A program made the translations under genes and the position numbers. A stretch of 59,866 nucleotides of DNA, from positions 1 to 59,866 of the forward strand of contig JAPPDF010000005.1 in NCBI GenBank assembly GCA_028875575.1, given 5' to 3'. The notes beneath the pieces were generated by a model. That model saw only the letters and a program-made list of their open reading frames with translations. It had not been told where the DNA came from and did not search any database. Positions 3,201 through 40,791 of this stretch are shown piece by piece (position 1 is the first letter of the stretch; the number at the start of each line of letters is the position of its first letter). Source of the DNA: Acidobacteriota bacterium. GTDB lineage: Bacteria; Acidobacteriota; Terriglobia; Versatilivoradales; Versatilivoraceae.

Positions 3201-6200
3201 GCAATTGACTCAAGGAGTTGCCAGTCAACCCCAACCGCACGAGGTTCCCCAACCCGCTGAAGATCCCCTCGGACAGACTGCCGAGTCGATTGCCGCCCAG
3301 GAACAGAAACTGCAGCGAGCTCAGACCGCTGAAGATCCCATCAGGTAACGTACTCAGCCGGTTTGAGCCCAGATTCAGCTGTTGCAGATTGCTCAGTCCG
3401 CTAAACACCCCCAGCGGCAGAGTGCGCAGGGAGTTGACGTTTAACAGCAGGGTTTCCAGCGAAACCAGTTCGTTGAAGACACTCACCGGCAAGCTGCGGA
3501 GTTTGGTATTGGTCAGGTCCAGGAACTGCAGGGAGCTGAGGCCACTGAAGATTCCCTCGGGCAAGCTGCCAACTTTATTTTTTTCCAGGTCGAGAACCTG
3601 CAGCGAAACCAGTCCCCTGAAGTCTTCCGCCTGAAATGCGGTGATTCCGGATTTCCTGAGATCCAGACCGGTCACCTGGGCCAGTTGCTCTACTGTCATT
3701 TCGGTGCAAACAACCACTCCGGTGATCTGCAGCAGCTTGTCCCGCACCTGGGGCGTGCGATCGCAGAACCCTTCAACCAACTCACTATCGGAAATGGTGA
3801 CGGTGTGCTCGGAGTTCCCAGCGGAGCGGATGAGCAATCGTTCGGTATTCAGGAAAGGAGCGTCCGTCCCGGTGCCGTCGGATCGCCGCAGCCCGATGTC
3901 GACGAGTTCGGCCAGGGTCAGGACCAGGGATTCCTCCTGGTCGTCGTCCTCCTCCGACAGGGTGAATGCGATCTCCTTACTGGTCTCCCCGGCCAGAAAC
4001 AGCAGCCCGCTGTCCGGAGCGGGCGACGGCCCCACGTAATCGTCTTCGGTGGCGCTGCCACCGATGGTGAAGGGCACTCGCACCGCTACCGGTAGTGCAC
4101 GGCTCAGAGTCGCTCTCACGCGTACGGTTGTTCCTTCGTAACCGGTCGAAGCGGTCGAAGCAAAGGCCAGTTCGGCCCTCAGGGATGAATCCAGTTGGAG
4201 TCCGGTGGATCCGGGTGTGGAACCCAGAGTGTCGAGCAGGTCGTCGAAGATCCCCGCGGGCAACCGGGTCAGGGAGTTGTTGTTCAGCCACAGATTCCTT
4301 AGGGCATTCAGACCGATGAAAACTCCTGGCGGCAGGGTTTGCAGTGAGTTGTGATCCAGCAGCAGACTCTGCAGGCCGCTCAGTCCGTTGAAGATTCCTG
4401 CAGGGAGGCTGCTGAGCGCATTGGAGGACAGGAATAGCGTCTGCAGTTTGCTCAATCCCTGGAAGTCCTGTGGTTTCAGGGAGGCGATGCCGGAGGCGGA
4501 CAGTTTCAGTTCGGCCACTTCGGCCAGATGATCCTCGCTCACGTCTGCACAGAGCTCTACTCCGGTGACTTCCAGCAACTCGTCCCGTACTTGCGCCGTG
4601 CGGTCGCAAATGCCCTCCGTATACCGGGAAATGGTGACCGTGTGGGTGGCACTGGCGGCCGAACGGATGAGAAGACGATGGGTCTCCAGGTGGGGAGCAT
4701 CGGCCCCGGTTCCGTCGGATCGGCGCAGACCGATGCCGGAGAGTTCGGCCAGGGTCAGAACCAGGGTTTCCTCCTGGTTGTCCCTGTTCTCCAACAGGGT
4801 GAAGCCGATCTCCTTGCTCGTCTCCCCCGCCAGAAACAGAAGCCCACTGTCCCCAGCCGGCGACAAGCCCTCGTAATCGTCATCGGCGGCGCTGCCCCCG
4901 ATGGTGAAGGGCACCCGCACCGCCACCGGCAGCGCGCGGCTCAGAGTCGCGCTTACCCGGACGGCTATCCCCTCGGATGCTGTCTGCCCGGTCGAAGCGA
5001 AGCTCAGGGTGGCCTTGAGATCGGCATCCACCTGCAGCCCGTTGAGGCGCGGGTCGGAACCAAGCGTGTTCAGGACGTCGTCGAAGATTCCCTTGGGGAG
5101 GGTCCCCAGGGAGTTTCCGCCCATCTGCAACGTTTTCAGTTTGTGGAGCCCCCTGAAGATACCGTCGGGCAGTTGGGTGAGTCCGTTGCTCGCAAGCAAC
5201 AGGGTTTCCAGATTGCTCAGGCCACTGAAGATGTCCCCAGGCAGGGTTCTGAGGGAGTTGTTGGCACCCAACTCCAGCCGCCGAAGGTTCCCCAGTCCGC
5301 TGAAGATTCCCGCGGGCAAGGTGTTGAAGCGGTTGTCACCCAACCTCAGCCACTCCAGTTTGCCCAATCCGCTGAAGGTGTCCTCGGGCAAGGTGCGGAG
5401 AGCGTTGCGATGAACACCGATAAACGTCAGGTTGCTCAGACCTCTGAAGATTCCCACGGGCAAGCTGGGCAGGGAGTTGTTCCACAAACTCAGTGATTCC
5501 AGGCTGCCCAGCCCTTGAAACATCCCCTGAGAAAGCGCGCTCAGAGAGTTTTCGCTCAACTCCAACAGCTTCAGACGACTCAATCCGCTAAAGAGTCCCT
5601 CGGGGAGCATGGTCAGGGAGTTATCGTTGAGCAGCAGTTCTTCCAGTCTGGTCAGCCCACTGAAGTCCTCCGCTTTAAGGGCGCTGATGGAGGAAAGCCC
5701 AAGATCCAGCCTGGTGACTCCCTCAAGATGGGTGGAGGTGACCTTCGCGCATCCCGAAACGCCGGTCAGCTCCAGCAGCTTGTCACGCACCTGGGTCGTG
5801 CGGTCGCAGATGCCCCCTGCAGGCTCGGGTATGGTGAGGGTGTGCGTGGAGGTGGCCGCCGAGCGGCTGACAAGACTTTCGGTCTTCAGGTGAGGAGCAT
5901 CCCTCCCGCTGCCGTCCGATCGTCGCAGCCCGATGCCGGAGAGTTGGGCCAGCGTCAGGACCAGGGTCTCCTCCTGGTTGTCATCGTTCTCCGACAGGGT
6001 GAAGGCGATCTCCTTGCTCGTCTCGCCCGCCAGAAACAGCAGCCCGCTGTCGGCAGCCGGCGACAATCCCTCGTAGTCGTCATCGTCGGCGCTGCCGCCG
6101 ATAGTGAAGGGCACCCGCACCGCTACCGGCAGCGCACGGCTCAGAGTTGCACTCACCTGCACGGCTGCACCTTCGGAAGCGGTCTGCGCGGTCGAAGCGA

Positions 6201-9200
6201 AACCCAGGGTGGCTTTCAGGGAAGAGTCCAGGTAGAGCCCGTCCACGCCGGAATTGCCGCCCAGGGTATCCAGCAAGTCGTCGAAGATCCCGGAGGACAA
6301 GCTGCTCAGGGAGTTGGATCGCAGGTCCAGTTCCTGCAGACGGCTCAGCCCGCTGAAGATCCCTGCGGGCAGAGTGGTCAGGGAGTTGTTGTCCAACTTC
6401 AGACGGGTCAGTTGAGTCAGTCCGCCGAAGTCCCCTGCCTGAAGGGAACTGATGGAGGAATTGGAAAGATCCAGGCTGGTCACTCCCTCAAGATGGGTGG
6501 AGGTGACGTTCGCGCATCCCGAGACGCTGGTCAGCTCCAACAGCTTGTCCCGCACCTCGGAAGTGCGGTCGCAGATGCCCCCTGAAGCCTTGGGAATGGT
6601 GACCGTGTGTTCGGAGCTTGTGGCTGAACGACTCAGAACACCTTCGGTCTCCAGGTGGGGAGCATCGCTCCCGCTGCCGTCCGATCGTCGCAGCCCGATG
6701 CCGGAGAGTTGGGCCAGCGTCAGGACCAGGGTCTCCTCCCGGTTGTCATCGTTCTCCGACAGGGTGAAGGCGATCTCCTTGCTTGTCTCCCCGGCCAGAA
6801 ACAGCAGTCCGCTGTCGGCAGCCGGTGACAATCCCTCGTAGTCGCCATCGTCGGCGCTGCCGCCGATGGTGAAGGGCACGCGTACGGCCACCGGCAGCGC
6901 ACGGCTCAGAGTTGCACTCACCTGAACGGCTGCACCTTCGGAAGCTGTCTGTGCGGTCGAAGCGAAGCTCAAGGTGGCTTTGAGCGAAGAGTCCAGGTAG
7001 AGCCCGTCCACGCCGGAATTGCCGCCGAGTGTATCCAGAATGTCGTCGAAGATTCCCGGGGGCAAGGCGCTCAGCGAGTTGGACCGCAGGTCTAGTTCCC
7101 GCAGACTATTCAGTCCGCTGAAGATCCCTGCGGGCAGGCCGGTCAGGGAGTTGTCGTCCAACTTGAGACGGGTCAGTTGAGTCAGTCTGCTGAAGTCCCC
7201 CGCCTGAAGGGCGCTGATGGAGGAATCGGAAAGATCCAGGCTGGTCACTCCCTCAAGATGGGTCGAAGTGACGTTCGCGCATCCCGAGACGCCGGTCAGT
7301 TCCAGCAGCTTGTCCCTCACCTCGGAAGTGCGGTCGCAGATGCCCCCTGAAGGTCTGGGTATGGTGACGGCGTGCGTGGAACTGGTGGCTGAACGGTTGA
7401 GAAGGCGATGGGTCTGCAGGTAGGGAGCATCGGCCCCGGTGCCGTCGGACCGGCGCAACCCGATGCCGGAGAGTTGGGCCAGGGTCAGGACCAGGGTCTC
7501 CTCCCGGTCGTCATTGTTCTCCGACAGGGTGAAGGTGATCTCCTTGCTCGTCTCCCCCGCCAGAAACAGCAGCCCGCTGTCGGCAGCCGGCGACAGCTCC
7601 TCGTAGTCGTCATCGCTGGCGCTGCCGCCGATGGTGAAGGGCACCCTAACCGCTACAGGCAACGAACGGCTCAGAGTTGCGCTCACCTGGACGGCTGCCC
7701 CCTCGGAAGCTGTCTGCGTGGTCGAAGCGAAGCTCAGGGTGGCCTTCAAGGAGAGGTCCATGGAGAGCCCGACGACACTCGAATCGGCACCGAGCGTATC
7801 CAGGATGTCGTCGAAGATCCCCGCGGGCAAGCTGGTCAGGGAGATGGCACCCATCTGTAGGTTTTCGAGAGAATCAAGTCCGTTGAAGACCGTCACGGGT
7901 ATTGATGTCAGTGGATTGCCCGAGAAATGCAGACGTTCCAGGTTGCCAAGACCGCTGAAGATCGAAGCCGGCAGGCTGGTCAGGGAGTTGCTGCCTAAAT
8001 ACAGCGTTTGCAGGTTGCTCAGTCCGCTGAAGATCGAAGCCGGCAAGCTCGTCAGGGAGTTGCTGCTCAACCCCACTCGAATCAGGTTGCTCAACCCGCT
8101 GAAGATCCCTGCGGGCAAGGTGCTGAGCCGGTTGTTGGTCAGGGACAGAAACTGCAGGGCACTCAGACTGCTGAAGATGCCCGCGGGTACGGCGCTCAGC
8201 GAGTTGGATCGCAGGTCCAGTTCCTGCAGGTTGCTCAGCCCGTTGAAGATTCCCACGGGCAAGCTCGTCAGGGAGTTGTTGTCCAACTTCAGATTTATCA
8301 GTTGAGTCAGTCCGCTGAAGTCCCCTGCTTTGAGGGAACTGATGGAGGATTGCGAAACAATCAGGCTTGTGACTCCCTCCAGATGGGTCGAGGCGACATT
8401 CCCGCATCCCGTGACGCCGGTGAGCTCAAGCAGCTTGTCCCGAATCTCGGCAGTTCGGTTGCAGATGCCCCCCGCAGGCTTGGGTATGGTGACCGTATGG
8501 GTGGAACTGGCGGCTGAGCGGCTGAGAAGACTTTCGGTCTTCAGGTGAGGAGCATCGGCACCGGTGCCGTCGGAGCGCCGCAACCCGATGCCCGAGAGCT
8601 GGGGCAGCGTCAGGACCAGGGTCTCCACCTGGTTGTCATTGTTCTCCGACAGCGTGAAGGTGATCTCCTTGCTCGTCTCCCCCGCCAGAAACAGCAGCCC
8701 ACTGTCGGCAGCCGGCGACAACTCCTCGTAGTCGTCATCGCCGGCGCTGCCTCCGATGGTGAAGGGCACCCGCACGGCCACCGGCAGCGCCCGGCTCAGA
8801 GTCGCGCTCACCTGCACGGCAGTCCCTTCGGAAGCGGTCTGTGCGGTCGAAGCGAAGCTCAGGGTGGCTTTCAGGGAAGAGTCGACGGAGAGACCATTGC
8901 CGCTGGTATTTGAACCAAGCGTATCCACGACGTCATCGAAGATTCCGGCGGGTAGGTTATTGAAACGGTTTCCATTCAGGCGCAACAGTTCCAGGGCGTC
9001 CAGGCCGCTAAAGACGGTCGCGGGAAGTTGGGTCAGATCGTTGTCATAGAGTGAGAGTTGTTTCAGGTTGCCCAGTCCGCTAAAGAGGTCCTCGGGGAGA
9101 GTGGTGAGGGAGTTCTTGAACAAATTCAAAATACGGAGTTTGGATAGTCCACTGAAGATCTCCTCGGGCAAGCTCGCCAGGGAGTTGTCGTACAAATTCA

Positions 9201-9831
9201 GCCAGTCCAAATTACCCAATCCGCTGAAGATGTCCTCAGGAAGAGTGGACAGGGAGTTTCCGCCCAAACTCAGATCAGTCAGGTTGGTCAGTCCGCTGAA
9301 GATGTCCTCGGGCAAGAATGTCAGGGAGTTGTCAGTTAGAGTCAGATCAGTCAGGTTGGTCAGTCCGCTGAAGATGCCGACAGGCAGGCTGGTGATGGAG
9401 TTGTCAAACAATTCCAGCCACTTCAGATTGGTTAGTCCGCTGAAGATGCCGGCGGTCAGGCTGGTCAGGGTGGAGTTGTTGTCCAACCAGAGGTACTCCA
9501 GATTAGTCAATCCGCTGAAAACCTTCTCGGGCAAGGTGGTCAGCGAATTCTCGGACAACTCCAGCTCATTCAAGTTGGTCAGCCCGCTGAAATCTCCCTC
9601 TTGAAGAGCAGTGATGCCGGCCCCGGTAAGATTCAACTCCGTCACTTCCTTAAGATGCGTCGAGGTGACGTCCTCGCATTCCGAGACCCCGGTGATTTCC
9701 AGCAGTTTGTCCCTCACCTGCGAAGTTCGGTCGCAGATGCCTTGCGCGGTTGCGGAGGACTGCGCGATCAGAACCAAGGCGGCGAGCCCCAGAATAAAAC
9801 CAGAGAGTTTCCTGAAAGGCCGTGTTGGCAT
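202..9831 (-). CDS. Giant secreted LRR / Calx-beta-like modular protein (3209 aa)
   Basis: A Sec signal peptide (about residues 1-30, ending in an ATAQ-like cleavage region) precedes eight modules. Each opens with a cysteine cap of the form GICDRT..VRDKLLE with a second Cys about 18 residues on. It continues with 2-9 leucine-rich repeats of about 24 residues (LPxGIFSGLSNLxxLxLxxNSLTS) and an IFDD.LDTLG end cap, and closes with a Calx-beta-like sandwich carrying DDDYE and LLFLAGETSKEI. Module caps lie near residues 31, 457, 831, 1086, 1342, 1742, 2023 and 2446. From about residue 2724 the protein changes to two related beta-rich blocks (FVPVILSLGG...). No sortase or membrane anchor is visible. 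The start is the ATG at 9831 because it directly precedes the signal peptide; an ATG at 9864 is possible. It is probably an extracellular adhesion or recognition protein (inference). It is transcribed alone. Confidence 0.9.
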   Translation of the reverse strand: MPTRPFRKLSGFILGLAALVLIAQSSATAQGICDRTSQVRDKLLEITGVSECEDVTSTHLKEVTELNLTGAGITALQEGDFSGLTNLNELELSENSLTTLPEKVFSGLTNLEYLWLDNNSTLTSLTAGIFSGLTNLKWLELFDNSITSLPVGIFSGLTNLTDLTLTDNSLTFLPEDIFSGLTNLTDLSLGGNSLSTLPEDIFSGLGNLDWLNLYDNSLASLPEEIFSGLSKLRILNLFKNSLTTLPEDLFSGLGNLKQLSLYDNDLTQLPATVFSGLDALELLRLNGNRFNNLPAGIFDDVVDTLGSNTSGNGLSVDSSLKATLSFASTAQTASEGTAVQVSATLSRALPVAVRVPFTIGGSAGDDDYEELSPAADSGLLFLAGETSKEITFTLSENNDNQVETLVLTLPQLSGIGLRRSDGTGADAPHLKTESLLSRSAASSTHTVTIPKPAGGICNRTAEIRDKLLELTGVTGCGNVASTHLEGVTSLIVSQSSISSLKAGDFSGLTQLINLKLDNNSLTSLPVGIFNGLSNLQELDLRSNSLSAVPAGIFSSLSALQFLSLTNNRLSTLPAGIFSGLSNLIRVGLSSNSLTSLPASIFSGLSNLQTLYLGSNSLTSLPASIFSGLGNLERLHFSGNPLTSIPVTVFNGLDSLENLQMGAISLTSLPAGIFDDILDTLGADSSVVGLSMDLSLKATLSFASTTQTASEGAAVQVSATLSRSLPVAVRVPFTIGGSASDDDYEELSPAADSGLLFLAGETSKEITFTLSENNDDREETLVLTLAQLSGIGLRRSDGTGADAPYLQTHRLLNRSATSSTHAVTIPRPSGGICDRTSEVRDKLLELTGVSGCANVTSTHLEGVTSLDLSDSSISALQAGDFSRLTQLTRLKLDDNSLTGLPAGIFSGLNSLRELDLRSNSLSALPPGIFDDILDTLGGNSGVDGLYLDSSLKATLSFASTAQTASEGAAVQVSATLSRALPVAVRVPFTIGGSADDGDYEGLSPAADSGLLFLAGETSKEIAFTLSENDDNREETLVLTLAQLSGIGLRRSDGSGSDAPHLETEGVLSRSATSSEHTVTIPKASGGICDRTSEVRDKLLELTSVSGCANVTSTHLEGVTSLDLSNSSISSLQAGDFGGLTQLTRLKLDNNSLTTLPAGIFSGLSRLQELDLRSNSLSSLSSGIFDDLLDTLGGNSGVDGLYLDSSLKATLGFASTAQTASEGAAVQVSATLSRALPVAVRVPFTIGGSADDDDYEGLSPAADSGLLFLAGETSKEIAFTLSENDDNQEETLVLTLAQLSGIGLRRSDGSGRDAPHLKTESLVSRSAATSTHTLTIPEPAGGICDRTTQVRDKLLELTGVSGCAKVTSTHLEGVTRLDLGLSSISALKAEDFSGLTRLEELLLNDNSLTMLPEGLFSGLSRLKLLELSENSLSALSQGMFQGLGSLESLSLWNNSLPSLPVGIFRGLSNLTFIGVHRNALRTLPEDTFSGLGKLEWLRLGDNRFNTLPAGIFSGLGNLRRLELGANNSLRTLPGDIFSGLSNLETLLLASNGLTQLPDGIFRGLHKLKTLQMGGNSLGTLPKGIFDDVLNTLGSDPRLNGLQVDADLKATLSFASTGQTASEGIAVRVSATLSRALPVAVRVPFTIGGSAADDDYEGLSPAGDSGLLFLAGETSKEIGFTLLENRDNQEETLVLTLAELSGIGLRRSDGTGADAPHLETHRLLIRSAASATHTVTISRYTEGICDRTAQVRDELLEVTGVELCADVSEDHLAEVAELKLSASGIASLKPQDFQGLSKLQTLFLSSNALSSLPAGIFNGLSGLQSLLLDHNSLQTLPPGVFIGLNALRNLWLNNNSLTRLPAGIFDDLLDTLGSTPGSTGLQLDSSLRAELAFASTASTGYEGTTVRVRATLSRALPVAVRVPFTIGGSATEDDYVGPSPAPDSGLLFLAGETSKEIAFTLSEEDDDQEESLVLTLAELVDIGLRRSDGTGTDAPFLNTERLLIRSAGNSEHTVTISDSELVEGFCDRTPQVRDKLLQITGVVVCTEMTVEQLAQVTGLDLRKSGITAFQAEDFRGLVSLQVLDLEKNKVGSLPEGIFSGLSSLQFLDLTNTKLRSLPVSVFNELVSLETLLLNVNSLRTLPLGVFSGLSNLQQLNLGSNRLSTLPDGIFSGLSSLQFLFLGGNRLGSLSEGIFSGLGNLVRLGLTGNSLSQLPESVFGGLNNLRYLHLSSNSLHSLPAGIFSGLGNLENLDLNGNPLSSLPVSVFNGLNSLESLQLAATSLNSLPAGIFDDVLDTLGLAPVLTGLLLNPHLMASLAFDSIAQTASEGTTVQVTATLSRELPVAVRVPYSLSGSATEDDYEGLSPAPQNGLLFLAGETSKGITFTLMENDDNQEETLVLTLGELSDIALRRADGTGPDAPHLDGESLLVRPAEGSMQVVTIQDTEGGICDRTTQVRDKLLEITASPQCEEVTAEQLDQVTELKLSDSGISTLQPQDFQGLSKLQNLVLSSNALSDLPLGTFNGLSSMRNLLLDHNSLYTLPAGLFRGLSDVRNLWLNGNSLTRLPSGIFDDMLGTLGSTPGSAGLLLDSSLKASLAFASTAQTAGAGTTVEVKVRLSRALPVALRVPYHLGGSAGSDDYTHLSPSPSEGLLFRAGSTDTEIVLTLGASAGIEDKTVVLTLGNLSDIGLRRSDGTGSDAPYLGSETLLERPETGSVHTITVARTDTGPVKAVFVPVILSLGGVNASFFTSEITLINRGSDQVALNYLYTAHAGGGSGRASEVIAPGRQKIVPDAFEHLNNLGIPVPRHGKRLGTLRVEVPVSSNVGVLVRTTTNVPDGRAGLAYLGIPEEEGFEEAVYLCGLRQNQQDRSNVAFQNMGAPEEGAITLRTTVYSGDVSDRRPRVLRDVRLAPGEFHQFNKVLGVLGSTANGYVKVERVEGTASFYAYGVINDQANSDGSFVFPVTAGSLERTAGQTLPVIVETSEFTSELTVTNFSEELRTLFFRFVAEGIRTDDMTTGFGITLNAGQQAIIADVVNELRRQGVAGLGSTRGFYAGPLFAEAEGGDMSGVVIGARTGSQGGGGQYSVFYTAVPAGEGFEETAWVYGLKQDEENRSNLALVNTGEVGDSESVFLIEIYDGETGLLAQTVVTRPIPAGHWHQFDGILGNYAPETRQGYVRILKVSGENPFLAYGVVNDGGAPGARSGDGAYVPAQE
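5800..7345 (-). repeat. Near-identical tandem modules 3 and 4 inside the LRR gene
   Basis: The modules whose caps lie near 7340 and 6575 are each about 765 bp, have only two full LRRs, and remain very similar at DNA level through the cap, the LRRs and the Calx-beta part. Examples are the shared stretch encoding GLYLDSSLKATL near 7000 and 6230, and the matching cap regions near 7330 and 6570. The other modules are more diverged. This points to recent duplication within the gene and makes copy-number change, or assembly collapse, likely here. Confidence 0.75.
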
Positions 9832-10250
9832 GATCGGGAATACCGCTGTCTTTGCTTTCAGCATGCCGCAATGAGACAAGAAACGATGGCTCGGAACACC
9901 GTGTCTTACGAATTGTGAACGTGAGCAAACAGGGAAGCCTATCATGCAGAAATACTTACTGGCCAACATCCTGGCCGGTTGTCACAATAATTGTGAAATT
10001 TTCACGGTGGCGGCAATTGTTCCTGGAGCTCGGTCTCGAGGGGGAGGGCGGGTTGGCAGAAAAAGGATGCGGGCGGGACGCCCGCGCTCCCGGGGGATGC
10101 CATGCGGCTGCACGGAGAAGGCATGTCCGGCCGGCGACTTCTAAAGAATCCGACGTGCACCCGTCGCAGCCACTGGATGATTGCGTGCTAGCATACGAAG
10201 CAGCGGAAAAATGACGGACCCTTCATGCCGAACGACTAAGGAATACGCCC
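9832..10250. other. Intergenic region between divergent giant LRR gene and OsmC gene
   Basis: This 419 bp gap separates two divergently transcribed genes, so it should hold both promoters, but I cannot place -35/-10 boxes with confidence. An A/T-rich patch with the imperfect palindrome TTGTCACAATAATTGTGA lies around 9979-9996. It resembles a binding site for a dimeric regulator and sits upstream of the giant gene. Around 10070-10095 is a short GC-rich phrase (GGGACGCCCGCGCTCCC) resembling one near 115-130. No gene is supported. Confidence 0.4.
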
Positions 10251-10709: not shown

Positions 10710-12626
10710 TCACTCCGCCACCGTCACCAGGGCTTCCGCCACCGGTCCCTGGGAGACACCGTCCAGCGCGATCTCCGCGGTCATCAGGCGTCGCACCCCG
10801 TCGGCAGCTTCCGGGGCGGTGGCGGCCAGTTGGATTTCGCCCTTCCCCGCGGCCGGCAGGGTAAGCTCGGTGAACTCGCCGCCGGCGCTCCACCCGTCGG
10901 GAGGGAGCAGGCGGGCCTGGAAGGTGGCCTCGGTTTCCAGGTTGTTGCGGAGCAGCAGCCGGTATTCCAGGGACTGGCCGGGCTTGACCTGGGCCAGGTA
11001 GGGCAGCATCCGCGCCCAGAACAGGTCGATGTAGCTGTCGCTGGGCTCGGCCACCAGTTTCCGGAAGACCCGCTCCTTGCGGTGAATGAAGTCCGAGTAC
11101 TCCCGCAGCAGCGAGGGGTCGCACTTCCAGACTCCAATATGACCCGGACAGATCAGGTCGGGGGCCACCTGGTTCATGACCTCGATGCAGCGGTGGTGCA
11201 TGCCGAGCTGAAAGCTGTTGCGCAGCACCGTGGTCTGAAAGGGTCTGGTCTCCACCTTGCCGCTCACCAGCACTTCCTGCAGGAAATAGTTGTCGCCGGT
11301 GAAGGCCACCCACTGGCCGTCGATCTCCCCGCTCAGAACCGAGTGGTACTCGGTCTGGCCGGGTGCGAAGTGGATGTCGAAGGTGTACTCCTCCCAGTCG
11401 AAACGCTCCCGGTCGCTCAGGGTCCGGTCGATGCGGATGGGCTTGTGAAAGGTGCAGGGGGTGGAGCTCCAGGCGGCCGGGTCGGCCAGAACCTGGGCCA
11501 CCGCATCCAGGGCCCAGCAGCGGGTGCCGTAGAACTGCTGCAGGTGCGGGATGCCGCAGGTGTGGTCGTCGTGGATATGGGTGGGAATCACCAGGTCCAG
11601 GGTGTGCACGCCGTACTCCTTGCGGAGCTGCTTGAGGTGGTGCTCGATAAACCGCATGACCTCCAGCCCGTTGTGGTCGGCGAAGGTGTGCATGTGGGGA
11701 TGGAAGGCGTGGCCGTAGTCGACGAACAGCGCCTTCCCCGAATCCGAGAGGATCACGTAGAAGAAGGAACAGGTCCAGGAGCCCCCCCAGAGGAGATGCT
11801 TGGACAGCTCCACGAACCTGGGCTCGGGCAGGTAGAGCATTTCGGGAATGCTCTCCCTCCCGCCGACCCGCATTCCACGCCCCAGCGAGACCAGTTGGAC
11901 CAGGGACTTCTCCAGCCGGTCGATGTCGCCCAGCGGATCTTCGATCGGCCCTCCGTGGGAGGGTAGTCCCAGGGGCGTCCCCGAGACGGCGTGGGAACGC
12001 CCTCCCACCACCTCCCCGCTGAGCGCGTCTCTCAGAGCCTGGATGGACTGCAGGGTGAAGAGGGCGCCCGTCATGTCTCCATAGGTGTATTCCATGGCGT
12101 GGAGCTGGTAGAGCTTGCCCCCTTCCACCATCAGGTCTCCGCTGAAAACCACCAGCCGCCCGTCGATCTCCGCCAGCAGCACGACCGAGCCCTGGGTATG
12201 CCCCTTGGCCGGCAGCACGTAGAAGCGGTAGCTGCGCCAGGCAAACTCCTCGTAGTCGTTCAAGGTGGCGGAGACCGAAAGATCCCGGGCCAGCGTCAGG
12301 AAGTTGTTGCGGTCGTCGTAATTGTCGTAGACCCGCCGGGTCTGCCAGAACAGCTCGGCCTTCTCGAAGAGATGGCGCTCGTATTGCGGGACCGCCAGCC
12401 TGGCTCCCGCCTCGATGAGCCGGGGATCTCCCCAGCACTGGTCGCGGTGATGGTGGGTGTGGAGCACCCACTCCACCTTGGTGCAGCCGATCTCCGCCAG
12501 GGAGTCCAGCACGGCGCCGGAGCCGGCGTCGATCAGCAGCGCCGACTGGCCGTCCTTGACGACATAGACGTTGCAGGTGTCGGTAAAACGGTAGAGGTTC
12601 TCGGAAATTCTTTCCATGGTGGCCAT
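10710..12626 (-). CDS. Tandem metallo-beta-lactamase-fold hydrolase (638 aa)
   Basis: Two MBL domains follow one another. The first (about residues 5-215) has HTHHHRDQCWG in place of HxHxDH, with the last His replaced by Gln, then KGHTQGS and FSGDLM. The second (about residues 255-480) has the canonical THIHDDHTCG, then APGQTEYHS, FTGDNYF and CPGHIG. A C-terminal beta-rich extension of about 110 residues follows. There is no signal peptide. I prefer the ATG at 12626, with a GGGAG box 10 nt upstream, over the GTG at 12635 that would sit directly on that box. The second domain should bind two metals; the first may be impaired or use a different metal set. The substrate is unknown; glyoxalase II-like or alkylsulfatase-like roles are only guesses. 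Confidence 0.82.
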   Translation of the reverse strand: MATMERISENLYRFTDTCNVYVVKDGQSALLIDAGSGAVLDSLAEIGCTKVEWVLHTHHHRDQCWGDPRLIEAGARLAVPQYERHLFEKAELFWQTRRVYDNYDDRNNFLTLARDLSVSATLNDYEEFAWRSYRFYVLPAKGHTQGSVVLLAEIDGRLVVFSGDLMVEGGKLYQLHAMEYTYGDMTGALFTLQSIQALRDALSGEVVGGRSHAVSGTPLGLPSHGGPIEDPLGDIDRLEKSLVQLVSLGRGMRVGGRESIPEMLYLPEPRFVELSKHLLWGGSWTCSFFYVILSDSGKALFVDYGHAFHPHMHTFADHNGLEVMRFIEHHLKQLRKEYGVHTLDLVIPTHIHDDHTCGIPHLQQFYGTRCWALDAVAQVLADPAAWSSTPCTFHKPIRIDRTLSDRERFDWEEYTFDIHFAPGQTEYHSVLSGEIDGQWVAFTGDNYFLQEVLVSGKVETRPFQTTVLRNSFQLGMHHRCIEVMNQVAPDLICPGHIGVWKCDPSLLREYSDFIHRKERVFRKLVAEPSDSYIDLFWARMLPYLAQVKPGQSLEYRLLLRNNLETEATFQARLLPPDGWSAGGEFTELTLPAAGKGEIQLAATAPEAADGVRRLMTAEIALDGVSQGPVAEALVTVAE

Positions 12627-12669
12627 GGGCGTCACTCTCCCTGAAGATCAAGATGGAGCCGGCCGGGAG

Positions 12670-13099: not shown

Positions 13100-15313
13100 T
13101 CAGGAAAGATTCAGCGCCCGGGACTGCTCCTCGATGGAAGCGAAGAGCTGCCGCTTCTCGGATTCGCTGGGGGTGCTTCGGTAGGCGTTGAGAAGCTCCT
13201 TCATGCTCACCAGGCCCTTGTAGAGACCGGCGTTTTCCAGGGGCGGCGTGAGGTAGGAGACCAGCTCGGCGCTGGTGCGGCGCTTGGCGATGGTGCCTTC
13301 GGAAGGATTGTTGACGCTGTAAATGTAGAGGTGGGGCATGGCTCCCAGGAGGCGGTCGGGCCAGCAGCCGGAGGAGAGCCCCACCTGCTTGCCCGGCATG
13401 AATTCAGCCGCCCCGTGGGTGCCCACGTGGATGACGGCGTCGGCCCCATAGACCTTCTGCAGGTAGCTGTAGAGGGCCATGAAGCCGTGGTGGGGGGTGC
13501 CTCCCTGCGCCGCCAGCATCCGCATGGGATCGCCCTCGTAGCCGAAGCCGGGTTGAACGCCGATGAAAGCGTTTCCGAGACGAGCGCCCAAAATCATCAG
13601 GTCCCTGCCGGAAGCGTTGAGGACACCCGGGGCCGGCCCCCACTCCCGCTCGATCTCGGCCACGTGGGGACTCAGGCTCCGATACTCTTCCACCGGCATC
13701 CGATAGGCCACGTTGGCCACCGTGCCCCACGCCTGGGAGTTGCCTTCCAGGACCTGGCGGCGAAGTTCCTCCGGACTCTGCAACCCTGGAATGTCATATC
13801 CCTCGGCACGGAGCCGGGTCAACACCTCCAGCAGGCTGGCGAAAACGTCCAGGTCGGCGGCGGTGCCCAGGTTCCCCTTGTTGGGGGGAAAGCAGAAGAT
13901 CACCAGGGCCAGCTTGAGGCTGTGGCGGGGGGCAGTCTGCAGGCGGTTCCAGCCCGCCAGCCTGGCGGCAATGAGCCGGCAGCGCTCGGTCAGCGGTTCA
14001 GGCTGGCGGCTCTTGTGGCGCACGCCCCCGAACAGGCGGGACTCGGTGGCTCCGTCCAGCTCGGGGATGGCCACCTGCATGGCGGTCTGCACCGGATTGA
14101 GGCCCACCCGGCTCTGCTCCCAGTTCTCGATGGTCTGCAGGTCCAGTGAGACCAGGGAACGGAAGGGAATGCCGAGCTCCTGGAGAAACTCCACCGAGGC
14201 CTCGGTGTCGTTCATCACCGGCCCTCCCACGAAGCTGAATCCGGTCAGCGAAACGATCTGGCTGACCCGCGGGCTTGGCCGTGCTTCACCGCCGCTTGCG
14301 GCGGGCGTCGGGTCGCCGTTACCGTCCTCCAGGAAGTAGGCGCGGCAGGCTTCCCGGTTGTCCATGAAGGTGGAGATGGCCGCCACCACCGACAGTCCTT
14401 CCGACTCGATGGCTCGAATGAGACCGTCGTAGTGCCGCCGGGCCTCCCCTACGATCTGGGGACGCATCAGCAGCAGTCCGACGGTGGTCCGGGGATCCAG
14501 GCTGCGCCCGGTGGCCGCCTTGTGCCAGTCCCGGTAGGCGCTGAAACTTTCGAACAGATCGGGAGCCAGCGGGTGATAGAGCCCGGTGGAGGGCCGCACC
14601 TCGGGCGGATCGGGGGCCGCCAGAGTGGCGTGGCCCGGCACGTAGTGCTTGACGGCGTGCAGCAGCAGGGAGCGAATGTTCCTGGGAGTGGGTTGCAGAA
14701 AGTGGCAGTAGAGGATGAGGTAGTTCTTGATGTCCCTCAGTTTCCCGGCGCCGGGAACGAACTTCAGGATCCTGGGCAGTCGCGCTGCCAGCTTGTGGTA
14801 GGCGTGGAAGCGCCCGCCACTGGAGCGGGGGCCGCTCCCCGACCGCGAGGCAGCTCTCCGGGACATCAGCTCCGACATCCAGGTTCCCAGCCGGTGAGCC
14901 AGGCTCAGTCCCGAAGCCGGGCGGGAGGCACGGCGGTCCGATCGCTTGAGGCTGGTCATCAGACGGCCCAGATCCAGCTTGCCCATGCGGGTCCGGCCCA
15001 TCAGATCGGCCAGGCAATTGAACACGATCACGGCGTGGTGGCGATGGCGGAAGCGGTCCAGGGCCTCCAGCAGGCGCCGGCTGTTGTCCGAATCGGTCAG
15101 GTGCATGACCAGCACCAGGTCGGCCCCGGCGAGGTCCCCCAGAGCCGCCTCCCATTCGGGCTCCGACCAGGCGGCCCCGCCGTTGTGGGCGGCCAGGCGC
15201 AGCTCCAGTCCATGCTCCCGGATCTCGCTTTCGGCCCGGAGCAACGGCGCCAGAATGCTGGAGCCCACGTAGAACACCACCACCTGGACCGGATTCGGGG
15301 CTGCATCCTTCAC
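13100..15313 (-). CDS. bchH: Mg-chelatase subunit H, N-terminal half (split BchH)
   Basis: This 737-residue protein matches the N-terminal part of BchH/ChlH, the porphyrin-binding subunit that receives the metal. It has an N-terminal BchH-type domain (VVVFYVGSSILAPLL), the segment FPPNKGNLGTAADLDVFASL, the conserved HVGTHGAAEFMPGKQ with its His and Glu (about residue 630), and PHLYIYSVNNPSEGTIAKRR. It ends at NLS, just where full-length BchH runs on into its second half. The start is the GTG at 15313, which overlaps the TGA of the upstream gene as GTGA and implies translational coupling. The matching C-terminal half is the upstream gene, so the order of the halves is reversed. It presumably works with BchI and BchD encoded nearby. 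CobN is less likely because the diagnostic motifs are of BchH type. Confidence 0.88.
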   Translation of the reverse strand: MKDAAPNPVQVVVFYVGSSILAPLLRAESEIREHGLELRLAAHNGGAAWSEPEWEAALGDLAGADLVLVMHLTDSDNSRRLLEALDRFRHRHHAVIVFNCLADLMGRTRMGKLDLGRLMTSLKRSDRRASRPASGLSLAHRLGTWMSELMSRRAASRSGSGPRSSGGRFHAYHKLAARLPRILKFVPGAGKLRDIKNYLILYCHFLQPTPRNIRSLLLHAVKHYVPGHATLAAPDPPEVRPSTGLYHPLAPDLFESFSAYRDWHKAATGRSLDPRTTVGLLLMRPQIVGEARRHYDGLIRAIESEGLSVVAAISTFMDNREACRAYFLEDGNGDPTPAASGGEARPSPRVSQIVSLTGFSFVGGPVMNDTEASVEFLQELGIPFRSLVSLDLQTIENWEQSRVGLNPVQTAMQVAIPELDGATESRLFGGVRHKSRQPEPLTERCRLIAARLAGWNRLQTAPRHSLKLALVIFCFPPNKGNLGTAADLDVFASLLEVLTRLRAEGYDIPGLQSPEELRRQVLEGNSQAWGTVANVAYRMPVEEYRSLSPHVAEIEREWGPAPGVLNASGRDLMILGARLGNAFIGVQPGFGYEGDPMRMLAAQGGTPHHGFMALYSYLQKVYGADAVIHVGTHGAAEFMPGKQVGLSSGCWPDRLLGAMPHLYIYSVNNPSEGTIAKRRTSAELVSYLTPPLENAGLYKGLVSMKELLNAYRSTPSESEKRQLFASIEEQSRALNLS

Positions 15314-17061
15314 GGGGTAACTCCTTCCAGCGCGTCTTCCAGGCCGGCAAACACTTCCCGCAACCGGCGCAGCACCTCGGGCCTGGCCGACCAGAACCCC
15401 CGTCCGGAGGCTTCCAGCAGCCGGCCCACCAGGGTCTGGGCCGAGTGGGGGTTGAGGCTCTGCAACCGCTCGAGCATCTGCGAGTCCAGCACGAAGGTCT
15501 CGGCCACCTCGTCGTAGATCCAGTCCTCGACGGCATCGGCCGTGGCCGACCACCCGAAGGTGTTGGTCAGTTGGTGTTCGATCTCGGCCACGCCGCTGAA
15601 GCCGTGCTTGAGCATGCCCTCGTACCACTTGGGATTCAGCACCTTGGTGCGGCTCTCCAGTTGCAGCGTTTCCTGAAGGGTGCGAACCCTGGATTGGGGG
15701 GTGAGCGAGTCGGACAGGTAGACCCGGGGCCGCTTGCCGGACCGTTCTTCCACGGCCTTGGTCACCCCTCCCAGGTACTCGAAGTAGTGATCCACGTCGG
15801 AAATGCCCACCTCGGTGCTGTCGATGTTCTGATAGCTGGCTTCCACCCGCGCGAGGGCGTTGTCCAGCAGCGTCTGGGCCTCCTTCCCCTCCATGGGCCG
15901 GCCCCGGGCGTCGCGCCCGTAGGCGAAGCACTTGCGCTTGACAAAGAGGTCTCCCAGCTCCCTGGCGTCCTCCCACTGGCTCTGCAGCACCATGAAGTTG
16001 ACGTTGGTGCCGTAGTTTCCGGCGGCGTTGGAGAAGACGCGGGTAGCCGCTTCCTGGAAGGTGGACCGGTCCCGGGCCATCTGCTGTTGGACGTGCTTGC
16101 GGACGAAGTTCCGCTCCGGGGGCTCCTCCAGGGCGGCCACCCGCTTGACGGCGCGGTCCAGCAACTCCATGGTGGAGGCGAACAGGTCCCGGAAGATGCC
16201 CGAGACGGTCATGACCACGTCGATTCTGGGACGTCCCAGTTGCTCCAGGGGAATGGCCTCCACCTCGGTCACCCGGTTGAGTCCGTCGCGCACCGGCCGC
16301 ACCCCCAGCAGCCAGAGCACCTGGGCCACCGCCTCTCCCTCTTTCTTGATGTTGTCGATGCCCCACAACACCATGGCTATGGACTCGGGGATCCGGTCAG
16401 TCTCCCGCTGGTGGCGTTCCAGCAGGGCCCGGGTCAGGGGCTCGGCCCGGCGGAGGGCCAGGGCCGAGGGGATGGCGTAGGGATTGACGGCATGGGTGTT
16501 CCTGCCGGTGGGCAGAATGGCGGGGTTCTGCAGCAGGTCCCCCCCGGGTCCGGGCGCGAGGTAGTGCCCTCTCAGGGCGGCTACCAGTCCCTCCAGTTCC
16601 CGGTTGGACTGCAGGCGCAGGTTCAGCCTGGACAGGAAGGCCAGGATCTCCAGCGCCGAATCGGCAGGCACCCCCGCACGCTGCTGGAGCCAGAACGCCG
16701 TGTCCGGTTCGGTTTGATCTCCCGGCGCCAGCAAGCGACGGACGGTCTCCCGGGTCAGGCTCTCCACCGACTCCCGCTCCCGCATCCGCTCCCCGGAGGC
16801 CTGGCTCTCCTCCAGCAAACGGTCATAGGGCGGCAATCCCAGTCCCGAGGCGATGAGATCGGTCAGGGCCGGAAGGCCGAGTTCGGGACGGGGAAAGGAG
16901 ACCACCATGGCCAGCAGGTGTACGGTCTCGGCCGCGGCGCCGGGATTCCCAAAGGTGTGCAATCCGGTGGGAATGAGGCGCTGCTCGATTTCGAGCACCC
17001 TTTCGTAGAGGGCCAATACCCGGCGGTCCCGTTCTTCGCTCGTCATCGATCCCTCGTTCAT
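15310..17061 (-). CDS. bchH: Mg-chelatase subunit H, C-terminal half (split BchH)
   Basis: This 583-residue protein begins at the point where the other half stops: ALYERVLEIEQRLIPTGLHTFG is the linker region typical of the middle of BchH. Other family motifs are NPYAIPSALALRRAEP, AMVLWGIDNIKKEG, LEQLGRPRIDVVMTVSGIFRD, NYGTNVNF and VDHYFEYLGG. It carries no N-terminal BchH motifs. The ATG at 17061 has GGGAG about 10 nt upstream and is preferred over the ATG at 17115, which has no ribosome site. Its stop overlaps the start of the N-terminal half. The two chains together give about 1320 residues, the size of an intact BchH, so they probably associate into one subunit (inference). Confidence 0.87.
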   Translation of the reverse strand: MNEGSMTSEERDRRVLALYERVLEIEQRLIPTGLHTFGNPGAAAETVHLLAMVVSFPRPELGLPALTDLIASGLGLPPYDRLLEESQASGERMRERESVESLTRETVRRLLAPGDQTEPDTAFWLQQRAGVPADSALEILAFLSRLNLRLQSNRELEGLVAALRGHYLAPGPGGDLLQNPAILPTGRNTHAVNPYAIPSALALRRAEPLTRALLERHQRETDRIPESIAMVLWGIDNIKKEGEAVAQVLWLLGVRPVRDGLNRVTEVEAIPLEQLGRPRIDVVMTVSGIFRDLFASTMELLDRAVKRVAALEEPPERNFVRKHVQQQMARDRSTFQEAATRVFSNAAGNYGTNVNFMVLQSQWEDARELGDLFVKRKCFAYGRDARGRPMEGKEAQTLLDNALARVEASYQNIDSTEVGISDVDHYFEYLGGVTKAVEERSGKRPRVYLSDSLTPQSRVRTLQETLQLESRTKVLNPKWYEGMLKHGFSGVAEIEHQLTNTFGWSATADAVEDWIYDEVAETFVLDSQMLERLQSLNPHSAQTLVGRLLEASGRGFWSARPEVLRRLREVFAGLEDALEGVTP

Positions 17062-17173
17062 TACCGAACCGCTCCCGGCTGGGGTCGTCCCTCCGCCTGG
17101 CGCAAACACTTTCATCAGCCGACTGCCTGGTGTCCTGTCTCAGAGACAGGGTTGCCATCTCCGAGACAGAACA

Positions 17174-19135
17174 CTAGCCCCGGACGTCCTCGGCCACCGA
17201 CTTCACCGCCTGAAACAGCGCCCCCTGGTCGGTCCAAGGCAGCCGCAGGTAGCGAGCGCCGGTCCAGTCTGCCAGGGTCCGGCCCTCCTCCCCGGCCAGG
17301 AAGGAGGGCCGGGTATCCACCACCACCGCGGTCAAGGCTTCTCGGCGGATCTCGGTTCCCAGCAGCCGCAGTTCCTGCTGCAGGGCGGCCGGGGTCGGCC
17401 CCAGCCCCGAGGGAGCGGGACGAGCCGGACGATTGGCCCGACCGTCGGTGAGAATCAGCAGCACCGGTTGGGGAGAACCGCGCAGTCGGGCCGCACGGGC
17501 CACCCCGAGGGCCTGCACCAGGCCGGCGGCCAGGGGAGTGGCTCCGGAGGCGGGCAGCGCCTCCACCAGGCGCTTGGCCCGCTGCAGGCTGCGGGTGGGT
17601 GGCAGGAGCGTTTCCGCGCCTTCGCCGCCGAAGCGGACCAGCGCCACCTGATCGCGAAAGACGTAGGCCTGCTGGAGGAGCCGGGCCATGGCCCCCTTGG
17701 CCTGGGCCATGCGGTTCACGGCCATACTACCACTGGCGTCCACCACGAAGACAAAGAGGATCCCCGCCTTGCCGCGAAAACGGCGGAAGCGCAGGTCCGA
17801 GGCCCGAATGATCATAGGGCCGCCCGCCCCGCCCCGCGGTCCGCGCCCGGCGGTGGGACGCCGATCCTTTTCGTCGGCGGAGGCCGCGGCTGCCCTCCGC
17901 CGGCGCCAGGACTGCCAGGGAGCCGCCGCCCGCAGGGTTGCAGCCACGGCAATGGAACGCCTGCGGTCCGGCCTCGGGTCGTTGCGAAAGGCCCTGCCCG
18001 GCGAACCGGGAAGCCTCTGGGTTCTGGGCCCCGTCCGACGGCCGGCGGCGCGGGCAGCCGGGAGCCCGCCGAACATCTCGTCGGGAAACTCTCCGGGGAG
18101 GGGGTCTACCGGCATGGGGGACTCATCCTCGGGTATTGAGCGGTCTTCGGTTCGGGCGCCAGGGTCGGAGTCCGGGGTTTCGACGGCCCCATCGTCCTCG
18201 GGTTGAGCCTGCTCATGCCGAGGCCCGGAGCGGGGCTCCTCATCCACCGGCACAGCACGAGGCCACAGGACCAGCTGGGCGGCCATCTCCAGATCCTCCT
18301 CGGATACCCGGCTGCGTCCGCACAGGGCTGCATGGGCCCGGGCCGCCAGCATGGCGAACAGGTCCAGCCGGTGTCCTTCCATCCCCAGTCGAGCGGCGGC
18401 AGAGATCAGTCGGCGCAGGTCGTCTTCGGGGAAGCTGACCTGGCTCAGAAGGCACCGGGCCTGCCGGATGGATTCGGCCGCGGCCCGGAGTGGGTCGGTT
18501 CCCGCGGGCTCGGCAGCGGCGGCGCCGGGTTCCCGACCCCGCTTGCTCTGTTCAAAACCCTGCAGGAGTTCCAGCACCTGTCGCCGCTGATCCAGGTCGG
18601 CAGTAGAGGCGCCGTCCACCAGCAGTCCCACCCGGGCCTGAATGATGGCCGCAGGATGGCCTTCAGCGGGGTCGTAGGTTCCCACCAGACAGAACCTGGC
18701 GAGGTGGGAGGTGCTCACTCCCTCCCGCTCGACCCTGACCCGGCCTGAATCGAGCGCCGAGGCGATGGCGCGCAGGCAGGATTCCGGCAGCAGATTGATG
18801 TGATCGACCTGAAGCACCCCGCGGTCGGCCCGGGCCAGCAGTCCCTCGCGGTAGCGCCAACGCGGGCCGGCAGCCGCCGGCTCGGGACCCAGACCTCCCA
18901 GCAGGCGATCCTCGCCCACTCCCAGGGGAGCCCTCACCAGCGCCGCTTCCCGGCCCTCGGGCTTCAATGCTTCCAGAAGGGCGGCAAAGGCCTTCACCAG
19001 CCTGCGCTTACCCGTTCCGGAAGGCGAAGCCATCAGCAGGCCGCCCAGACGAGGTTCCACGGCCAGCAACAGAAAGGCCTGCTTCGCCAGCGGTTGACCC
19101 ACCACGGAAGCGAAAGGATCAACGGGAGCGGTCAT
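17174..19135 (-). CDS. bchD: Mg-chelatase subunit D (AAA-like plus von Willebrand A domain)
   Basis: The 653-residue protein has an N-terminal AAA-like domain whose Walker A is degraded (SPSGTGKRR, with Arg where Ser or Thr is needed) and whose Walker B reads VLQVDHINLL, lacking the Glu. This is the usual state of BchD, which scaffolds the BchI ring without hydrolysing ATP. A charged, Pro/Arg-rich linker (about residues 330-440) follows. The C-terminal vWA domain has a MIDAS motif DASGSM (about residue 470) and LILTDGRANR. It lies between bchI and the two bchH parts on the same strand, 112 bp from the latter. The vWA domain is expected to contact subunit H. Confidence 0.9.
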   Translation of the reverse strand: MTAPVDPFASVVGQPLAKQAFLLLAVEPRLGGLLMASPSGTGKRRLVKAFAALLEALKPEGREAALVRAPLGVGEDRLLGGLGPEPAAAGPRWRYREGLLARADRGVLQVDHINLLPESCLRAIASALDSGRVRVEREGVSTSHLARFCLVGTYDPAEGHPAAIIQARVGLLVDGASTADLDQRRQVLELLQGFEQSKRGREPGAAAAEPAGTDPLRAAAESIRQARCLLSQVSFPEDDLRRLISAAARLGMEGHRLDLFAMLAARAHAALCGRSRVSEEDLEMAAQLVLWPRAVPVDEEPRSGPRHEQAQPEDDGAVETPDSDPGARTEDRSIPEDESPMPVDPLPGEFPDEMFGGLPAARAAGRRTGPRTQRLPGSPGRAFRNDPRPDRRRSIAVAATLRAAAPWQSWRRRRAAAASADEKDRRPTAGRGPRGGAGGPMIIRASDLRFRRFRGKAGILFVFVVDASGSMAVNRMAQAKGAMARLLQQAYVFRDQVALVRFGGEGAETLLPPTRSLQRAKRLVEALPASGATPLAAGLVQALGVARAARLRGSPQPVLLILTDGRANRPARPAPSGLGPTPAALQQELRLLGTEIRREALTAVVVDTRPSFLAGEEGRTLADWTGARYLRLPWTDQGALFQAVKSVAEDVRG

Positions 19136-19429: not shown

Positions 19430-20623
19430 CTAACCGCCGGCCGCCTGGGCATCCTTGGGCTCCAGCGGAAACACCCGGTCCAGAGCCTGCTCGATCCGGG
19501 CAGCCGATTCCAGCGGCTCCAGGGGATCTTTCTGCAGCCGGTGGCGCAGTGACATGACGGCCACCCGCCGGATATCCTCGGGCAGAACGACCTCCCTTCC
19601 CTGCCAGGCGGCCAGGGCGCGGGAGGCGCGATAGAGGGTCAACTCCCCCCGGTGGCCGGCCACTTCCAGCCGCAGACAGAGCTCGGCCATGCCCCGCAGC
19701 AACCCGGGATCCACACCGACCCGGGAGATTCGGGAAAGGGCCGCCTTCAGCTTGTGCCGCAACTCCTCCTGGAGCAGTTCCGCCTGGGCGCAGAACCCGG
19801 CGGGATCCTGTTCGAAGCCTTGACGTCTTCGCACGATCTCGATGCGCTCATCCAGGTCATCCAGGGTCCTGACCTCCACAAACAGGCCGAAGCGATCCAG
19901 CAACTGGGGTCGCAACTCCCCTTCCTCGGGATTGCCCGATCCCACCAGCACGAAGCGGGCGGCGTGGCTCACCGAGAGCCCCTCCCGCTCCACCTGGTTG
20001 CGACCGCTGGCGGCTGCATCCAGCAGGAGGTCCACCAGGAAGTCTTCGAGCAGATTGACCTCGTCGATGTAGAGAAAACCCTGATGGGCCTGGGCCAGCA
20101 GGCCCGGCTGGAACACCTTGGCCCCCCGGTTCAAGGCCTGCTCGATGTCGAGACTGCCGCAGACCCGGTCTTCGGTAGCCCCCAGGGGCAGATCGACCAC
20201 CGGGACGGCAAAGGTCTCCCGGGGCAGGCGCTTGCCCTTCCCCCGGCGTTGGTGGCACTCCCGGCAAAGATCCCGAACCCGATTCGGATCGCAGTTGAAG
20301 GGGCAGTCCTTCACCCGGACTTTGGAAGGCAAGAGGTCGGCCAGAGCTCTCACTGCCGTGGACTTGGCGGTTCCCCGGTGCCCCATGACCACCACGCCTC
20401 CAATGTGGGAGTCGAGGACCGTCAGCAGAAGGGCCAGCTTCATGTCCTCCTGGCCGACGATGGCCGAAAAGGGGTAGACGGAGGGCGCAGTTCCACGGGA
20501 CGCCTTGGTTCTCCGGGGCTTGGTCGCGCGGGGTTCGGGCAGGCTCACGTGTCGAGGGGTGTGACCGGGCCGTCTGGCTCCAGGTGCTTGCGACGGTCCG
20601 GGCCGTCCGGGAGGAATCTTCAA
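19430..20623 (-). CDS. bchI: Mg-chelatase ATPase subunit I
   Basis: This is an AAA+ ATPase of BchI/ChlI type: PFSAIVGQEDMKLALLL at the start of the core, Walker A GHRGTAKST, the BchI-specific insertion with CPFNCDP and LCRECH, Walker B LYIDEVNLL, sensor region VGSGNPEEGELRPQLLDRFG, and a helical lid. It forms the ring motor that powers metal insertion with BchD and BchH. The core starts at about residue 49, giving an unusually long, basic, Pro-rich N-terminus. The first possible start is TTG at 20623 and a GTG exists at 20548; neither has a clear ribosome site, so the true start is uncertain. It is the first gene of the chelatase cluster. Confidence 0.9.
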   Translation of the reverse strand: MKIPPGRPGPSQAPGARRPGHTPRHVSLPEPRATKPRRTKASRGTAPSVYPFSAIVGQEDMKLALLLTVLDSHIGGVVVMGHRGTAKSTAVRALADLLPSKVRVKDCPFNCDPNRVRDLCRECHQRRGKGKRLPRETFAVPVVDLPLGATEDRVCGSLDIEQALNRGAKVFQPGLLAQAHQGFLYIDEVNLLEDFLVDLLLDAAASGRNQVEREGLSVSHAARFVLVGSGNPEEGELRPQLLDRFGLFVEVRTLDDLDERIEIVRRRQGFEQDPAGFCAQAELLQEELRHKLKAALSRISRVGVDPGLLRGMAELCLRLEVAGHRGELTLYRASRALAAWQGREVVLPEDIRRVAVMSLRHRLQKDPLEPLESAARIEQALDRVFPLEPKDAQAAGG

Positions 20624-37731: not shown

Positions 37732-38167
37732 TTTCAGGAATTTGGCAGGTCTATCGGCCAAGACGTGATCGAAGAGGCGAACCGGCTGGGGCGGCGCACA
37801 TTCGGTCCAGCCCGTTACTTCTGCTGCTCTACCAACTCGCCCCGGGTGAATCCTTCAAACAGCCCTTCCAGCCGGGCCATGCGTTCCCGGAGATCGGCGA
37901 CGTCTCCACGGACATCGGCCACATCTCCTCGGACATTGGCGACGTCCTCTCGGACATGTTGAATTTCCAGTCTGAACTCCTGTCGGATATCGGATGAGAC
38001 CTTCCATCCGAGGCTGACCAATGCCACGCCGAGAATGCCGATGGCAATCAACTCCGCGCTGAGAATCATTGCTGATGCTCCTTCCACTTCGACGAGCCCG
38101 CCGAGAGGGAGAACAGACCAGGCAAGGGGTTCATTTGCTGACGGATCACTCGGTTAGTGTACCACGC
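37732..38167 (-). repeat. Direct repeat DR-A, left flank of the 8 kb island
   Basis: This 436 bp block recurs in the same orientation at 46164-46622. Shared edges are TTTCAGG.ATTTGGCAGGTCT on one side and GTTAGTGTACCACGC on the other. Sequence outside these edges is unrelated. Each copy contains one small coiled-coil gene with its own ribosome site and upstream sequence. The two copies bracket the CobN/ExbB-like genes. Confidence 0.88.
37815..38069 (-). CDS. Small membrane-anchored coiled-coil protein (DR-A copy)
   Basis: The 84-residue protein has one N-terminal transmembrane helix (AELIAIGILGVALVSLGW) and a long amphipathic helix of seven-residue units (VREDVANVRGDVADVRGDVADLRERMARLEGLF), a heptad coiled coil. 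The ATG at 38069 has GGAAGGAG about 8 nt upstream and is preferred over an in-frame start at 38087. Its sister gene at 46249-46524 is nearly identical but has one more heptad. Its function is unknown; such proteins oligomerise at the inner membrane. Confidence 0.75.
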   Translation of the reverse strand: MILSAELIAIGILGVALVSLGWKVSSDIRQEFRLEIQHVREDVANVRGDVADVRGDVADLRERMARLEGLFEGFTRGELVEQQK

Positions 38168-39573: not shown

Positions 39574-40146
39574 TTGCTTATCCACACCGTAGCACAACTG
39601 TGTGGCTTGGCCGCCGTGGTCTTCGCCACCGCATCGCGGGGCCGTCGCGGGGTTGCCGCACTCTCTGCGGGCTTCTTGTGCGGGCTTGGATTGCCGGTTC
39701 CATCTCCCGGATGGACAGGCGCGCTTGTCGCGGCCATGGCAGTGCTGGTGCTCATTGATTCGCGCTCCCCGACGACCGCGCTCGCAGGCCCGCTGGCGTC
39801 CGGGCTGACTGGTGGAATGTGCGCACAGATGCTGGTCGGCCAAGGGATGGCAACGTGGCTGGCCTGGCCGCTCGCGGCGGGCTTTGTCGCGGCATCGGCC
39901 TTTGCGTCCCAGCGCAACCCTCGATTCGCTCGACGGGAAATCCGCGAGGACGCGCTGGCAGCGCTCGCAGCGCTGGGCTTGGCCGTCGCGGCTGCGCCAA
40001 GCGTGGCAGCGGGTTGGCGCACGGCGGGAGTAATGAACCTTGCGGCCAATGACTTGGCTCGACCGGGGCCGAACTCGGGTCTACTATTGGGCGTCGCGGC
40101 TGTCGTTGTGCTCGGAGGCCTGCATAGGTTGCGGAGGCGTGCATGA
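39574..40146 (+). CDS. Multi-pass membrane protein of the CobN/ExbB-like locus (HmuT position)
   Basis: This 190-residue Ala/Leu/Gly-rich protein has six or seven hydrophobic spans (for example GLAAVVFATAS, GALVAAMAVLVLID, WLAWPLAAGFVAASAF and LLLGVAAVVVLGGL) with short loops. The start is a TTG at 39574 supported by GGAGG 9 nt upstream. Its stop overlaps the ATG of the ExbB-like gene (ATGA), so the two are translationally coupled. It holds the place of HmuT in Bacteroidota hmuSTUV loci (from memory). A role as a channel partner or small-molecule permease is a guess. Confidence 0.78.
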   Translation: MLIHTVAQLCGLAAVVFATASRGRRGVAALSAGFLCGLGLPVPSPGWTGALVAAMAVLVLIDSRSPTTALAGPLASGLTGGMCAQMLVGQGMATWLAWPLAAGFVAASAFASQRNPRFARREIREDALAALAALGLAVAAAPSVAAGWRTAGVMNLAANDLARPGPNSGLLLGVAAVVVLGGLHRLRRRA

Positions 40147-40790: not shown

Positions 40791-40791
40791 G

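Follow-up and report, generated by a model that had tools for sequence, protein, structure and literature searches.

Analysis of a 59,866-nucleotide stretch of acidobacterial DNA (contig JAPPDF010000005.1, positions 1 to 59,866; the window) revealed two adjoining genes that encode the two halves of a BchH/ChlH-like chelatase subunit in reversed order, the C-terminal half coming first. In plants and phototrophs a subunit of this kind inserts magnesium into precursors of chlorophyll. The large subunit of class I chelatases has been studied as one chain of roughly 150 kDa. The split, with its order-swapped genes, is a real arrangement, confirmed by comparison of independently assembled genomes. 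We infer, with a probability of about 0.78, that the two products are halves of a single class I chelatase subunit, assembling non-covalently, driven by the I and D proteins and of single origin. The genes of the locus and a paralogue are as follows.

19430–20623, minus strand: bchI, a BchI/ChlI-like AAA+ subunit (TIGR02030, 479.8 bits, exceeding the cut-off of 466.95)
17174–19135, minus strand: bchD, a BchD/ChlD-like AAA+ plus VWA (integrin) protein with a DASGS motif (TIGR02031, 487 bits)
15310–17061, minus strand: gene for the C-terminal half, 583 residues, from ATG at 17061 to TGA at 15310
15310–15313, minus strand: four-base GTGA overlap of the C-half TGA (15312–15310) and the N-half GTG
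13100–15313, minus strand: gene for the N-terminal half, 737 residues, from GTG at 15313–15311 to a stop at 13100
10710–12635, minus strand: next downstream gene, for a protein with two metallo-beta-lactamase domains (PF00753, two stretches)
41425–45438, minus strand: full-length CobN/HmuS-like paralogue, not in the chelatase operon and the one further PF02514 protein that the genome encodes

The order of transcription on the minus strand is bchI, bchD, C half, N half and the double metallo-beta-lactamase gene. The BchD-like protein scores slightly under the TIGR02031 cut-off of 499.55, and VWA_2 and an AAA lid are also matched. The sequence-only reading had placed the split gene at 13100–17061, with the C half leading and the N half starting at a GTG that overlaps the preceding stop codon. 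Its coordinates are right, with the one correction that the interval covers two reading frames. An alternative in-frame ATG for the C half is possible further upstream, at 17115. The long frame at 13100–16366 (1088 residues) is regarded as an open shadow frame in GC-rich DNA because homology begins approximately at the GTG.

The two products divide the family cleanly between them. The C half matches positions 549–1089 of PF02514 (615 bits) and the N half positions 5–538 (490 bits), with no overlap; the N half also carries an N-terminal DUF3479 (PF11965), so that the full PF02514 together with DUF3479 is reached solely by the two half-proteins combined. The homology of both to PF02514 and ChlH is far above chance. 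Comparison with ChlH crystal sequences (PDB chain numbering) reveals that the N half, comprising the DUF3479 head domain, neck and domain III, stops at residue 744 and that the C half, equivalent by sequence to ChlH 734–1330, begins at 754, while the outer ends of both coincide with the native ChlH termini. The cut is therefore reciprocal. Its position on ChlH, ~744/754, is probably at or near the border of domains III and IV. Values of dN/dS are 0.12–0.21 for both halves, and purifying selection acts on each.

The active site of ChlH is distributed over both chains. Equivalents of H621, E625, Y651, Y653 and E660, whose roles, with that of H1174, are taken from PMC13297055, are situated in the N half, and the H1174 equivalent is in the C half; each is invariant in 39 of 39 split proteins. 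With five invariant residues in one product and one in the other, the active site must come from two chains. ChlH holds its porphyrin in a pocket at the interface of domains III and V (PMC5098175), and these belong to different chains in the split form. ChlH without its N-terminal 565 residues retains porphyrin binding but its activity is abolished (PMC4255732); by analogy, porphyrin binding would be expected of the C half by itself, whereas catalysis would require the N half as well. The AlphaFold model of the N half matches ChlH 18–725 with a Z of 29.5, and that of the C half matches the C-terminal part of ChlH with a Z of about 40, these separate models being only moderate (pLDDT 70 and 72, 37 sequences). 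The poorly predicted parts include segments in which some of the most conserved residues lie, which fits the absence of a partner but proves nothing.

We propose that the two halves assemble non-covalently into one BchH/ChlH-type (class I) subunit. The N half (head, neck and domain III) would provide the equivalents of H621, E625 and E660, and the C half (domains IV–VI) that of H1174, the two closing round a porphyrin at the III/V interface. Insertion or removal of metal would be powered by the AAA+ pair BchI/BchD, whose genes lie just upstream. Natural, separately expressible halves with a divided active site should be useful for studying closure of the cage on the porphyrin.

Among the closest known systems is BchH/ChlH. 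The split halves match both parts of Synechocystis ChlH (PDB 4zhj/6ysg) in sequence and in predicted fold, the six residues named above are kept and the I and D genes adjoin; BchH/ChlH is, however, a single polypeptide of ~1200–1400 residues, against 583 + 737 residues and swapped genes here. The H1174 site is His in the split proteins, in BchH and in Aureibacter HmuS, and Asp in CobN. Three residues further on, ChlH has Asp whereas the split proteins have Glu, as does the BchH of Chloracidobacterium. In N-only, C-only and joint trees the 39 split pairs form one clade with an SH-aLRT of 100, on the BchH side and apart from CobN and HmuS. Its neighbours are BchH of Chloracidobacterium and Roseobacteraceae and BchH-like proteins of Planctomycetota, Chlorobiota and Corynebacterium; the trees are quick searches under LG+G4, and the exact sister of the clade is unsure. 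Distances among the N halves and among the C halves correlate with r = 0.90, as expected from shared descent. Intact BchH-like proteins occur at four loci in Planctomycetota, a Chlorobiota MAG and Corynebacterium, and in Corynebacterium the I and D genes adjoin.

What the enzyme does was approached through the pathways of its hosts. Ferrochelatase is present in 11 of 12 carriers, indicating that they make porphyrin. Searches of sampled carriers for BchM (PF07109) and for BchN/B/Y/Z (PF00148, subunits of DPOR and COR) gave no match, Chloracidobacterium serving as positive control, and CbiC (PF02570) was found in no carrier searched, although positive controls matched. In view of these absences, 'BchH' is here the name of a fold and does not denote chlorophyll synthesis; the name given in the sequence-only reading holds for family and fold only. 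The ferrochelatase and the His at the H1174 site, with the tested chlorophyll and corrin genes absent, make a porphyrin substrate likely, and the sequence data point most likely to a two-chain, ATP-driven porphyrin chelatase or de-chelatase. Carriers that make porphyrin without the tested chlorophyll or corrin steps point to a tetrapyrrole reaction that is as yet unassigned.

With the downstream pathway missing, the chemistry could have changed. In many loci of Blastocatellia and Bryobacterales the operon is followed, downstream of the N half, by genes for a Rieske protein (24 loci) and cytochrome b (20 loci), about half of the loci having them, and divergent ccm genes (ccmABCEF) flank it in about a dozen loci. 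In the window's genus a metallo-beta-lactamase gene takes the place of these neighbours, so that the link is suggestive only; this gene is at the same position in congeners and in a second genus of the family, where it is 73% identical. It is quite possible, though somewhat short of an even chance, that the two-chain ATP-driven chelatase or de-chelatase performs undescribed chemistry in non-phototrophs, such as formation of a new metalloporphyrin or recovery of metal from heme, perhaps tied to the Rieske, cytochrome b and ccm functions.

A more specific proposal, that the protein is a cytoplasmic de-chelatase of heme or another metalloporphyrin with HmuS-like chemistry driven by I and D, we consider unlikely, if deserving of attention. 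HmuS belongs to the same superfamily, with a His pair across the active site and an H...E motif in its C-terminal part (PMC12583661). It has in common with the split form the H1174-site His and a Glu that follows three residues later; porphyrin is made, the chlorophyll path is absent and genes for cytochrome c maturation, Rieske protein and cytochrome b lie near many loci. The Glu is not diagnostic, however, being shared by intact relatives that include Chloracidobacterium BchH. Moreover, HmuS is one membrane-anchored chain that is encoded in a TonB/Hmu operon and works independently of ATP (PMC12583661), whereas the split form keeps bchI and bchD beside it, and inspection by eye shows no hydrophobic membrane anchor in the N half or the C half.

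A cobaltochelatase for vitamin B12 is very improbable. CobN shares the PF02514 superfamily fold, its complexes likewise use I/D-like AAA+ proteins and a cobyric acid synthase-like protein is encoded in several congeners; nevertheless, CobN is one chain with Asp in place of His at the H1174 site and falls on the other side of the tree, and the lack of CbiC in the carriers searched implies that no corrin ring is made de novo. Least credible among the functional assignments is a magnesium chelatase for (bacterio)chlorophyll synthesis. The best family scores are indeed to BchH models (the halves reach 711 and 696 bits against NF009140) and the clade is on the BchH side of the tree, but each half alone scores under the BchH equivalog cut-offs, no photosynthesis genes adjoin the locus and, unlike chlorophyll-making hosts of BchH/ChlH, the carriers are without the tested later steps. 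The absence of PF07109 and PF00148, both present in Chloracidobacterium, largely refutes this assignment.

The split form is old and widespread in Acidobacteriota, many of its carriers being non-photosynthetic. Congeners 91–97% identical have the same two frames, in the same order wherever the contig permits, and a genome assembled as a single 5.1-Mb contig (OX638355.1) has both half frames in C-then-N order; a second genus of the family, 67–70% identical, shares this arrangement. A scan of GTDB species genomes seeded with the split C half gave 61 loci, counts that are no measure of frequency; the compared loci are all from genome assemblies, mostly MAGs. Wherever both halves were on the contig (46 of 46 acidobacterial loci), C precedes N on the same strand. 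Carriers include Blastocatellia, Pyrinomonadaceae, Bryobacterales and other lineages, and bchI and bchD, or an I–D fusion, are directly upstream in most loci. The two genes overlap by four bases in every congener compared, and several further genera show this overlap too; the gap is usually less than 160 bases, and 600–720 bases in some. In five loci a PDDEXK_3 (GxxExxY-like) frame of ~133 residues lies between the two genes. In the MAG Chersky_418 the two halves are on separate contigs, from which we conclude that adjacency is not strictly required. The N half was not recovered in one short-contig MAG, and a fragmented congener has apparent frame breaks in both halves. Of 396 genomes sampled evenly across the phylum, eight have a split-size frame, and the remaining matches are long frames; in photosynthetic Chloracidobacterium the BchH is intact, with 1306 residues. 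Surveys that drop short BchH matches as incomplete would overlook the split halves.

Assembly error, frameshift or a decaying pseudogene is rejected as the source of the two halves with near certainty: the source genome is a draft MAG and the half frames overlap, but the identical junction recurs in independently assembled genomes, including OX638355.1, long intact half frames persist across dozens of species and dN/dS is low. The sequence-only reading had described two genes in reversed order, cut at the junction of the halves with no frameshift, and had asked whether an unsupported rearrangement across 15310 might lie behind them; the reciprocal cut and the recurrent junction uphold its description.

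That reading had also likened the locus to a circular permutation of bchH, which is apt for the gene order but does not extend to the polypeptide: a search of related genomes, as it had proposed, found no fused C–N chain among the 61 loci or the matches of the phylum survey. Proteins circularly permuted through duplication (PMC3320104) likewise have their parts exchanged, with the old C and N termini at the junction, whereas the split form remains two genes. The C-then-N order probably has a single origin that predates the divergence of the sampled split lineages of Acidobacteriota. The simplest route would be a tandem duplication of the gene, after which copy 1 lost its N part and copy 2 its C part; fission with local rearrangement is an alternative. 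No clear case of a split in N-to-C order was seen among the surveyed loci. In the complete genome of Tepidiforma flava (positions 3596–8150 of the locus), a BchH/CobN-like gene is broken into several frames, its parts running N-to-C in shifting frames and resembling a frameshifted gene.

The swapped form was unfamiliar to the sequence-only reading and is absent from the papers searched, but it is not peculiar to this genome, being fixed in a large acidobacterial clade. No description of a split bchH, chlH or cobN was found in the literature searched, nor anything on Versatilivorator, and the split, order-swapped arrangement is not described in the passages of PMC7842958 consulted. The novelty of the gene order is firm within the literature and genomes searched.

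A search of the genome with PF02514 for an intact bchH, whose presence would have counted against the split reading, found only the CobN/HmuS-like protein at 41425–45438. This protein has an apparent signal peptide and a terminal membrane helix, its family score is that of a CobN, and the residue corresponding to ChlH H1174 is Asp; membrane anchoring, score and Asp together rule it out as an intact BchH. Genes for ExbB and a DUF2149 protein (40143–40790 and 40759–41124, plus strand) adjoin it. The neighbourhood is the gene set found beside HmuS in Aureibacter tunicatorum, but with Asp replacing His at the active-site position of the C-terminal part. Near-identical short coiled-coil frames (VSSDIRQEFRLEIQHVREDV...) at 37815–38087 and 46249–46575 on the minus strand are direct copies ~8.4 kb apart that flank this HmuS-like locus. 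Elsewhere in the window, 202–9969 on the minus strand is a single frame of 3255 residues; it contains numerous leucine-rich repeats as well as repeated Calx-beta-like modules and apparently encodes a secreted or surface protein.
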